Below are positions 19,473 to 34,490 of a stretch of 64,000 nucleotides of DNA, piece after piece (position 1 is the first letter of the stretch; each line of letters starts with the position of its first letter). The notes beneath the pieces were generated by a model. That model saw nothing but the letters and a program-made list of their open reading frames with translations, ran no database searches and was not told the origin of the DNA. The position numbers were made by a program, and so were the translations under genes. The DNA is from Streptomyces qinzhouensis (GTDB lineage: Bacteria; Actinomycetota; Actinomycetes; Streptomycetales; Streptomycetaceae), in assembly GCF_007856155.1 (NCBI RefSeq), contig NZ_CP042266.1:4774001-4838000 (forward strand), written 5' to 3'.

Positions 19473-21113
<1,641 letters not shown>

Positions 21114-21124
21114 TTTTTTTAAGT

Positions 21125-21360
21125 CTCGGTTCGCCTCCGGGGTGCTTTAGCAGATTTCTTCAGTCGATCGTGCTCGGTCGCTCGTTCCTCGCGACCTGCG
21201 CGCGTTCTCCCTCCAGAAATCCGCGCACCCCTTCGGCTCACTCGCCGGTCCTTCGGGTCGAGCGGGTACTGAGCAGTGGACCCATGGGTTCCTGGGCGGG
21301 ACGGAACGGGATGTATTCCTTCCGCTCACCAGGGCAGACCGGTCCTGAGCAGTGACCCTT
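21125..21360 (+). repeat. Dispersed 3'-UTR repeat, copy A (downstream of groEL1)
   Basis: The 86-bp core at 21125-21210 differs from copies at 30624-30709 (complement) and 34149-34234 at only one or two positions each. It starts 11 nt after the groEL1 stop, in sense orientation. A hairpin GGTCGC (21176-21181) / GCGACC (21191-21196) is conserved. The less conserved tail continues through CTTCGGCTCACTCGCCGGTC and two GAGCAGTG-containing units near 21271 and 21347. The translated reading frames are not credible proteins. Confidence 0.9.
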
Positions 21361-21372
21361 TGGTCCTTGGGC

Positions 21373-21403
21373 GGGCCCGATCCGGTAATGCCGGGTCGGG
21401 CCC
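21373..21403. terminator. Bidirectional terminator between groEL1 and the dehydrogenase gene
   Basis: 13-bp stem: GGGCCCGA (21373-21380) with TCGGGCCC (21396-21403), continued by CCGG/CCGG around the loop TAATG, followed on the plus strand by GTTCTTGT. It lies 15 bp before the stop codon of the convergent gene. Confidence 0.8.
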
Positions 21404-30498: not shown

Positions 30499-30534
30499 CG
30501 TATTTGGGGGCCGGACCCGTGGGGTCGGCGCGTG

Positions 30535-30709
30535 CGCCCTGGGAGTTCATGGGTTCACTGCTCACGAGGCGTCCGACCCCCGGGACCGGCGAGTGAGCCG
30601 AAGGGGCGCGCGGATTTCTGGAAGGAGAACGCGCGCAGGTCGCGAGGAACGAGCGACCGAGCACGATCGACTGAAGAAATCTGCTAAAGCGCCCCGGAGG
30701 CGAACCGAG
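30535..30709 (-). repeat. Dispersed 3'-UTR repeat, copy B (downstream of the sugar dehydrogenase gene)
   Basis: Core 30624-30709 on the minus strand, starting 9 nt after the TAA of the minus-strand dehydrogenase gene. It differs from copy A by one base in 86. The tail continues through CTTCGGCTCACTCGCCGGTC to a GTGAGCAGTGAACCCATGAA unit near 30545-30570, nearly the same as in copy C. It is thus oriented with the gene it follows, not with guaB3. Confidence 0.9.
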
Positions 30710-30718
30710 CCTTGAAAA

Positions 30719-31972
30719 TTACAGCCTGTGGGCGGCGCCTGCCGGGGTGGCGCCGCGGGTGTCCAGCAGGAGTTGTGCCTTCGCGGCCAGGCCTTGGAGG
30801 TCGTAGGTGTGGTGGTGCTGGAGGAGCACGGTGAGATCGGCGTCGGCGGTGGCTTCGTAGAGCGCGTCGGCCCGGGGGACGGGGTTGCCGTGGAGGTGCC
30901 ATTCGGGGATGTAGGGGTCGTGGTAGGTGACCGTCGCGCCCAGTTCTGTCAGCCGGTGGGCGATTTCGGTCGCCGGGCTGCCCTGGACGTCGGCGATATC
31001 GGGTTTGTAGGTGATGCCGAGCAGGAGTACCCGGGCGCCGCGGGCCGATTTTCCGTGTTCGTTGAGGAGGGCGGCGCAGCGTTTGGTCACATAGCCCGGC
31101 ATGCGGTTGTTGATTTCGCGGGCGAGGCCGGTCAGCCGTAGGCCGGGTCCGGGGTCGGTGCCGGGGGTGCGGCCGGGGGGCAGCAGGGTGCCGGGGTCCG
31201 GTGGGGTGCCGTGGCCGCCGAAGCCGGGTCCCGGGCGGAAGGCCAGGAAGCCGTAGGGCTTGGTTTCGGCGCAGCGGATGGCGTCCCACAGGTCGACGTC
31301 GAGGTCGTGGCAGAGGACTGCCATTTCGTTGACGAGGGCGGTGTTGACCAGGCGGAAGGTGGTTTCCAGCAGTTTTACGGTTTCGGCTTCGCGGGGGCCG
31401 CGGGCGCGGACGACCTTGTCGGTGAGGCGGCCGTAGAAGGCGGCGGCGGCTTCGGTGCAGGCGGGGGTGAGGCCGCCGATGACCTTGGGGGTGTTGGTGT
31501 AGTCGTGGGTACGGCTGCCGGGGTCCACCCGTCCGGGCGAGTAGGCCAGATGGAAATCGCGGCCGGCCCGCAGTCCCGAGCCCGTTTCGAGGAGGGGGCG
31601 CAGAAAGGTCTCGGTGGTGCCGGGGCGGACGGTGGATTCCAGCAGGACGGTGGTGTGGGGGCGGAGCCGGGCGGCGAGGGTGCGGGCGGCGTCGGCGAGG
31701 GCGGTGAGGTCGGGGTCGCCGCCGGGGTCGAGGGGGGTGGGGACGCAGAGGGCGGCGGTGCGGACTCGGCCGAGTTCGGTGGGGTCGGTGACGGTTCTGA
31801 AGCCGCCGGTGACCATGCGGCGTACGTCGGCGGGGGTGCGGCCGGCCGCGGGTTCGGCGAGCCGGCGGGGGTCGGGGTCGTAGCCGACGGTCCGGAAACC
31901 GGCGGCGACGGCGGCCTGGGCGAGTGGGAGGCCGTCGTGGCCGAGTCCGATGACGGCGAGATCTGCGGGCAT
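30719..31972 (-). CDS. UDP-glucose/UDP-ManNAc dehydrogenase family protein lacking the catalytic Cys
   Basis: 417 aa from ATG 31972. NAD domain LAVIGLGHDGLPLAQAAVAAGFRTVGYD; VPTPLDPGGDPDLTALADAARTLA; LLESTVRPGTTETFLRPLLE; YSPGRVDPG; VKLLETTFRLVNTALVNEMAVLC (conserved Lys and Asn); and the UDP-binding end VLLLGITYKPDIADVQGSPATEIAHRL. The active-site loop, normally GGHC(I/L)P(V/I)DP, reads GGHGTPPDP: a GGC Gly codon stands where TGC or TGT Cys is required. Oxidation to the uronic acid should fail unless another residue substitutes. The coding strand is rich in A- and C-ending codons. Divergent from glpD. Confidence 0.88.
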   Translation of the reverse strand: MPADLAVIGLGHDGLPLAQAAVAAGFRTVGYDPDPRRLAEPAAGRTPADVRRMVTGGFRTVTDPTELGRVRTAALCVPTPLDPGGDPDLTALADAARTLAARLRPHTTVLLESTVRPGTTETFLRPLLETGSGLRAGRDFHLAYSPGRVDPGSRTHDYTNTPKVIGGLTPACTEAAAAFYGRLTDKVVRARGPREAETVKLLETTFRLVNTALVNEMAVLCHDLDVDLWDAIRCAETKPYGFLAFRPGPGFGGHGTPPDPGTLLPPGRTPGTDPGPGLRLTGLAREINNRMPGYVTKRCAALLNEHGKSARGARVLLLGITYKPDIADVQGSPATEIAHRLTELGATVTYHDPYIPEWHLHGNPVPRADALYEATADADLTVLLQHHHTYDLQGLAAKAQLLLDTRGATPAGAAHRL

Positions 31973-34142: not shown

Positions 34143-34148
34143 ATGGGG

Positions 34149-34345
34149 CTCGGTTCGCCTCCGGGGCGCTTTAGCGGATTTCTTCAGTCGATCGTGCTCG
34201 GTCGCTCGTTCCTCGCGACCTGCGCGCGTTCTCCTTCCAGAAGCCCCCTACGCCTTCGGCGTGGGGGGACCCCCAGCGCGCCCCTTCGGCTCACTCGCCG
34301 GTCCCGGGGGGCGGACGCCTTGTGAGCAGTGACCCATGAACTCCC
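34149..34345 (+). repeat. Dispersed 3'-UTR repeat, copy C (downstream of glpD)
   Basis: Core 34149-34234, 6 nt after the glpD stop, sense orientation; one base different from copy B. Relative to A and B it carries an insertion containing an 11-bp hairpin at 34244-34268 (arms starting CCCCCTACGCC). After the insertion the shared CTTCGGCTCACTCGCCGGTC segment resumes, ending in a GAGCAGTGACCC unit. Confidence 0.9.
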
Positions 34346-34490
34346 AGGGCGCACGCACCGGGACCAGGGGGGCGGGTCCTGGGTAGTGAACCGATCGCGC
34401 CTCCGGCGCACGCACCAATCTCAGGGGGGCAGGCGGTCCTGAGCAGTGAACCGTTTTCTCCTGGGGGGCGTGCACCGGATTCCGGTGGGG
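34321..34490 (+). repeat. Three degenerate 57-60-bp tandem units after glpD
   Basis: The motif (GAGC/GGGT)AGTGA(A)CC recurs at about 34324, 34381 and 34441, each followed about 20-30 bp later by GGCG(C/T)(A/G)CGCACC-like or GCGTGCACC sequence and a run of G. The same unit ends copies A (twice) and B. Spacing and sequence vary, so it is not a CRISPR array. The rest of the 622-bp gap (34143-34764) holds a GC-rich promoter region without a gene. Confidence 0.7.

Follow-up and report, generated by a model that had tools for sequence, protein, structure and literature searches.

We describe a family of short, gene-less repeats in Streptomyces that are very probably mobile and that carry a pyrimidine-rich tract of their own from site to site. 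The repeat is a sharp-ended 122-nt element, CTCGGTTCGCCTCCGGGGCGC ... GCGCGCCCCTTCGGCTCACTCGCC. Streptomyces qinzhouensis has 20 copies of it in a single-contig genome of 8.15 Mb, and three of these lie in the window, by which we mean the whole 64,000-nt stretch of DNA analyzed here. The best explanation that we can offer is that the repeat is a non-autonomous mobile element built like a SINE, albeit a tentative explanation that stops slightly short of an even chance. Movement through an RNA is likewise the best-supported mechanism, unproven at this time, and we lean on it with about the same reserve.

The element in the window

The original prediction described an 86-bp core in three nearly identical copies, and its placement and likeness are confirmed: the cores lie at 21125-21210 (+), 30624-30709 (-), and 34149-34234 (+), and copies 1 and 2 are 98% and 99% identical to copy 3 over 86 nt. 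A 23-nt inner word occurs three times in the window and in 0 of 100 shuffles (up to three mismatches allowed). The close spacing behind stop codons is also as described, i.e., 11 nt from the TGA of the GroEL1 gene, 9 nt from the TAA of the UDP-sugar dehydrogenase gene on the minus strand, and 6 nt from the TAA of the GlpD gene. We take these genes to be groEL1, ugd, and glpD; dehydrogenase and GlpD-type domains were matched in the genes before copies 2 and 3, and the GroEL1 assignment is based on a His-rich C terminus. The extent of the repeat had been drawn too short: the core is indeed shared, but it is enclosed in the longer element of 122 nt, which is laid out in the window as follows.

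21114-21124, plus strand: T-rich tract TTTTTTTAAGT of copy 1, directly 3' of the groEL1 stop (TGA-TTTTTTTAAGT); on the minus strand, an A-rich 3' tail
21125-21246, plus strand: copy 1 of the 122-nt element
21247-21372, plus strand: additional sequence that separates the element from the hairpin and includes two units of a second repeat with GAGCAGTG
21373-21403, plus strand: terminator-like hairpin GGGCCCG...CGGGCCC, found by eye and taken to be the native groEL1 one, now farther from the stop
30588-30709, minus strand: copy 2 of the 122-nt element
30710-30718, minus strand: T-rich tract TTTTCAAGG of copy 2, directly 3' of the dehydrogenase stop
34143-34148, plus strand: tract of copy 3, short and worn (ATGGGG), immediately 3' of the glpD stop
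34149-34299, plus strand: copy 3 of the element, 151 nt
34243-34277, plus strand: C-rich palindromic extra piece inside copy 3; a similar piece is present in the S. qinzhouensis copy L020

Copy 3 measures 151 nt rather than 122 because of this internal piece, and comparable pieces break up copies in other species (L055, L056, L066, and L071). The second repeat, whose unit of roughly 60 nt contains GAGCAGTGA and GGGGCGCACGCACC, occupies 21247-21372, 30511-30587, and 34300-34480 of the window; by eye, it lies 3' of 10 of the 20 copies in the genome, partly in tandem.

Copies in the genome and a conserved fold

Of the 20 copies in S. qinzhouensis, 19 are full-length core matches, and the match to the remaining one is split in two by an extra piece; a 21-nt inner word is exact in all 20. 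One more site with a single mismatch in this word is a remnant, another site has three mismatches, and two further sites retain only the joined ends of the element. Full-length copies in this genome are 90 to 100% like copy 3, and in other species no full-length match exceeds 86%, a within-genome likeness of the kind expected after recent spread or after gene conversion.

The view of the repeat as a structured element is strengthened by covariance among aligned copies, which shows strong compensatory change: 124 cells with changes on both sides versus 42.7 +/- 5.7 in shuffles, a signal that is lost when partners are slid. This alignment comprised 35 of the 42 copies extracted from this and other genomes; the other 7 were excluded, in most cases because of internal insertions. 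The structure as drawn has a 7-bp outer helix, a 10-bp middle helix (up to 19 bp in one group of relatives, L060), and two short inner helices, and 95.6% of its pairs form. Folding additionally predicts pairing of the ends, in which case nearly the whole element would be one hairpin. The GGTCGC/GCGACC hairpin singled out in the original prediction is present but is just the inner helix of a larger fold. Rfam covariance models gave no match in the window at the gathering score. At the same score, eight element loci yielded only Scr2736, in two loci; at an E value of 1 or less, a scan of eight loci yielded only Scr2736, beside one element, and the element itself was unmatched. Separately, at L050 and L140 (one genome), whole elements stand in tandem, repeating every 129 nt, with a T run that is short or missing.

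Position and orientation relative to genes

The repeat had been proposed to lie always in the sense direction behind the 3' end of a gene, a rule that fails already across the genome of S. qinzhouensis, where 15 of the 20 copies are so placed and five (L010, L014, L017, L019, and L020) are not. This count was read by eye; an automatic caller gave 14 sense and 6 antisense, having placed L016 otherwise and missed the gene before L006. Fourteen of the 15 sense copies start 2 to 20 nt past the stop (L016 being counted from its duplicated head), and at L002 the reading frame ends within the element. In many sense copies of this genome the tract touches the stop codon itself, e.g., at 21111-21124 and 30710-30721.

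Across the genus, the upstream neighbor is a sense gene end for 74 of 145 copies and an antisense gene start for the other 71, with the neighboring genes called by length and GC3 only and the 145 being 163 matches less 18 that were repeats of the same copy or had flanks below 300 nt. Minus the S. qinzhouensis copies, the split is 60 versus 65 (n = 125). The element is therefore not a dedicated 3'-untranslated-region (3'-UTR) module, a reading that goes unsupported beyond this genome, and the 15 of 20 seen here against an even split in the genus represents a real local bias and no rule. The nearness of the element to gene boundaries is real: 23 of the 74 sense cases lie 0 to 15 nt past the stop, and 19 of the 71 antisense cases lie 15 to 30 nt from the start codon.

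Empty sites, filled sites, and duplicated targets

That the repeat might be mobile was part of the original prediction, and this part is borne out by orthologous sites that are empty in some genomes and, in others, filled and flanked by duplicated target. For the window loci, the element is absent after groEL1 in all 21 relatives in which the stop was placed (29 were fetched), and there is no T run after the stop in these either; it is absent behind the dehydrogenase gene in 12/12 relatives with a match (the same facing neighbor being clear only in some, e.g., L240 and L242) and behind glpD in 11/11 relatives whose stop was placed. By eye, the groEL1 relatives usually have a G+C-rich hairpin within about 50 nt of the stop; here the element and the extra sequence intervene.

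A target duplication flanking the insert was seen at two loci. The clearer case is a junction of two overlapping genes (an operon junction), which run antisense to the element. Among the best 30 of 149 genomes with a match, 25 junctions are empty, with the two anchors exactly 57 nt apart and GCTCAYGACAGCGCCTCC, or a close variant of it, present once; this proportion is not a frequency because choosing the best 30 favors empty sites. The remaining five have 89 to 101 nt, and one of these, L406, has the word on each side of a short piece that resembles the left end of the element. The junction of L298, which served as the query, seemed empty but has 92 nt between anchors and may be the scar of an element. 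Six filled junctions (L056, L088, L178, L200, L278, and L375) carry the 18-nt word on both sides, variably worn: the two copies agree at 18/18 nt in L375, 16/18 in L200, and 14/17 in L278 and at fewer positions in the others (L178 was read by eye). In L375, what separates the two word copies is CCTTCTTTTGCGG, the element, and CG. The tract, which lies beside one duplication, is missing from the empty junctions, and because the word there continues into TC(G/C)G-like sequence, the tract was inserted with the body and is not target. Through the duplication, one gene regains its stop and the other its start plus upstream sequence.

The other locus is that of the conserved small RNA (sRNA) Scr2736, for which 58 of 61 genomes gave a match; when the 30 loci with the highest scores were read, 4 carried the element, one of these in degenerate form. 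Past the hairpin, a T run of at least 6 is present in 4/4 filled versus 1/26 empty loci, and in L068, L295, L346, L157, and L192 the insert lies between AGGGCGCCTTCT-like words. The length of the duplication seems to depend on the locus, being about 12 nt in one case and about 18 nt in the other. The Scr2736 (RF02831) terminator is an insertion hotspot for different variants of the element (L263, L272, L273, and others), and a gene cluster that includes Scr2736 loci was met at 18 element loci, in some genomes twice.

Over 198 copies, flanking repeats numbered 5 versus 0.8 expected (score of at least 10) and, with milder scoring (at least 9), 10 versus 1.6 expected; 7 of these 10 come from the operon junction and Scr2736 loci, L368 reflects the spacing of an array, and L065 and L328 are single cases. 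When flanks were compared with one another, 867 pairs came up, most of them from the Scr2736 locus or from a copy paired with itself or with its array; these were filtered afterwards. Among the 20 S. qinzhouensis copies, no target duplication stood out from the control (mean of 7.2 versus 7.6).

The tract and the strand of the element

Aligned on the left end of the element, the flanks of 147 copies are C rich from -17 to -12 and T rich from -12 to -5 (81% T at -7); positions -4 and -3 are mainly purines, and the last two bases (-2 and -1) are GG. To the right of the element, the same copies show no feature save for G at the first base (67%). The left tract varies from copy to copy in length and composition, and the body is fixed. 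Read on the other strand, the insert is thus a body followed by an A-rich tail, the whole lying between target duplications. Some loci (L358, L330, L141, L155, L178, L326, L319, L354, and L016 of this genome) have the tract with a truncated left part of the element, once or twice, before a full element. As proof that each unit brings its own tract, with the right half of the older unit lost, these head-to-tail arrays were considered and dropped, being mostly tandem duplications: by eye, the tracts at the array junction and at the flank share their last 9 to 12 nt in L178, L319, and L354 and are similar in L141, L184, and L095, but not in L016. Such arrays probably arose by tandem duplication at the hairpin.

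Which strand would be the RNA? The antisense RNA is more stable in 86 of 89 representatives, by a mean of 10.5 kcal/mol (flanks: 104/177 and 1.5), and this advantage holds with G.U pairs forbidden (89/89) and with DNA parameters (84/89); because it persists when G.U is forbidden, the energy gap comes from loop composition. With near-duplicate copies removed, A.C (a wobble on the opposite strand) versus G.U stood at 102:32 under mild thinning, different from the unpaired-site control (p = 3e-10), and at 63:27 under strict thinning, not different from that control (p = 0.65). As strong evidence on the strand, this asymmetry was rejected, since it varies with thinning and control and is suggestive only. 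Against an antisense RNA, a single pair occurs as U.G on the sense strand in 154 of 163 matches, some copies being counted twice. In total, these strand signs are not decisive but give moderate support for a putative element RNA of the strand opposite to that of the original prediction.

A proposed mechanism

A body, an A-rich tail, and a target duplication are together the signature of target-primed reverse transcription, as in LINEs and SINEs. We posit that the active form would be an RNA, 5' GGCGAGTGAGCC ... GGCGAACCGAGCC, with an A/G-rich tail at its 3' end, perhaps a heteropolymeric tail made by polynucleotide phosphorylase (PNPase). A reverse transcriptase acting in trans would copy this tail from a nicked target end, and because the tail would be copied first, the first bases laid down would be the T/C-rich tract. 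A second, staggered cut would then give rise to the duplication of 12 to 18 nt. Copies would persist at gene edges because a duplicated target can restore the stop or start signals there.

In a published account (PMC5872136), RNA tails in Streptomyces are described as heteropolymeric, poly(A) polymerase I (PAP I) is absent from the genus, and PNPase is thought to be the tail maker. The mixed tract of the element fits such heteropolymeric tails. We speculate that this may be a first family of bacterial SINEs, i.e., an RNA of about 122 nt with a mixed, A-rich PNPase tail, reverse transcribed into nicked DNA with a 12- to 18-nt duplication, spread through much of the genus, and shaping gene edges; taken in all its parts, this account is possible, although we would sooner expect some part of it to fail.

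Like the SINEs of eukaryotes, the element has a short, noncoding, structured body, an A-rich tail beside a target duplication, an apparently variable duplication length, and a presumed dependence on a helper; it differs in its bacterial host, in a purine-rich mixed tail rather than pure A, and in that no helper retrotransposon was found. Group IIC introns, which insert behind terminators, share with it the frequent site just behind terminator hairpins, whereas the target duplications of the element, the lack of any intron-like sequence noticed in it, and the lack of an Rfam match set it apart. The 616 called neighboring open reading frames (ORFs) were clustered, and the 30 largest clusters, judged by eye, resemble shared loci, with none that looks like a transposase or reverse transcriptase. 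The presence of the element tracks that of the reverse transcriptase domain RVT_1 weakly (30/59 element-bearing genomes versus 30/91 others, p = 0.04). S. qinzhouensis has two RVT_1 matches, one a UG23-type gene filed under defense and the other unclassified; the former lies at 3715847-3716230 (L399; PADLOC match, E = 5.6e-215). Old copies may persist without a helper, and the absent helper is the main weakness of the retroposon view, which also leaves the position of the S. qinzhouensis copies directly after stop codons unaccounted for.

Does the element instead move as DNA? The main rival is a MITE-like DNA transposon, moved in trans by a transposase or integrase that makes long duplications, with the tract as its variable left end, and this is a possibility that we take seriously without thinking it probable. 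The long hairpin, the related GGC...GCC words at both ends, a right end that is well fixed in most copies, and the 29 of 59 element-bearing genomes that lack RVT_1 all suit such an element, and some integrases do make target duplications this long. What argues against this rival is a left tract that varies in length and composition while the body is fixed, a duplication that apparently differs by locus (about 12 versus about 18 nt), and the fact that no transposase was recognized by eye beside the copies. No parent with the same ends was recognized among the neighbor ORF clusters. Bacterial MITEs, too, are small, non-autonomous repeats with hairpin potential; the element differs from them in the variable left tract, the long duplication, and the lack of a recognized parent insertion sequence. 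Palindromes of the REP/BIME type, which a RAYT (Y1) transposase spreads, are likewise multicopy, intergenic, palindromic, near gene ends, and found as species-specific variants. This reading was already weakened, and we consider it quite unlikely: PF01797, which matched 5/14 genomes as a control, has no match in S. qinzhouensis despite the 20 copies, so that no Y1 transposase is found there to serve either kind of DNA element; the family has target duplications, which to our knowledge are not expected of RAYT/Y1 enzymes; and 122 nt with a T-rich tract and a larger, fixed fold is unlike a REP.

The conserved fold and the 15 of 20 sense placements in this genome favor the idea that the repeat regulates as a 3'-UTR module, with selection acting on mRNA stability, termination, or sRNA release. 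This idea is nevertheless very improbable given the 71/145 copies with an antisense gene start upstream, the absence of the element after groEL1, ugd, and glpD in 21, 12, and 11 relatives, and some copies in other species that (by eye) lie behind a terminator hairpin, where the upstream transcript should already have stopped. Could gene conversion and replication slippage at hairpins have made the copies without any transposition? The likeness of copies within a genome and the resemblance of the arrays of tract plus truncated head to tandem duplications (by eye, e.g., L178, L319, L354, and L141) agree with it, but these processes do not explain how copies come to stand at unrelated loci, or how a site can be empty in one genome and filled, with its target duplicated, in another, and we give this explanation very little credence as the main route. 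Retroposition remains our preferred reading.

Spread in Streptomyces and beyond

A DNA search found the element in 28 of 150 Streptomyces genomes, and a covariance model detected it in no fewer than 171 of 392, a minimum because just 9 candidates per genome were scored. Across 296 genomes of the class, the model was positive in 17, namely, 12 Streptomyces genomes (S. qinzhouensis included) and 5 weak cases from one other actinobacterial family. These weak matches (L116 to L120) come from 5 genomes of 3 genera, with best E values of 1.4e-4 to 3.3e-6; read by eye, some have a similar hairpin with different loop sequences. In a collection of named sequences, the pattern of tract plus left end was found in 109 stretches, 108 of them titled Streptomyces and one Microtetraspora glauca. 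The core variant of this genome had 0 matches in that same collection and the right-end pattern 0 in viral contigs, two collections from which records very close to the window were possibly omitted; one variant of the element searched against plasmids and another against phages gave no match. The open-license literature on bacterial and Streptomyces small repeats held no description of the element among the matches listed, and a text search of that literature for the letters of the right end returned 0 papers.

What the element may mean

The usual view of small mobile repeats in bacteria, such as REPs and MITEs, is that they move as DNA. If this element is moved through RNA, then SINE-type retroposition would enter the bacteria, and there would be a job for one of the bacterial reverse transcriptases that have no known role. 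Even if it is moved as DNA, it is a widespread, structure-conserved mobile family with a tract of its own and a hotspot behind Scr2736. Because filled and clean empty versions of one locus exist, the mechanism can be tested directly.
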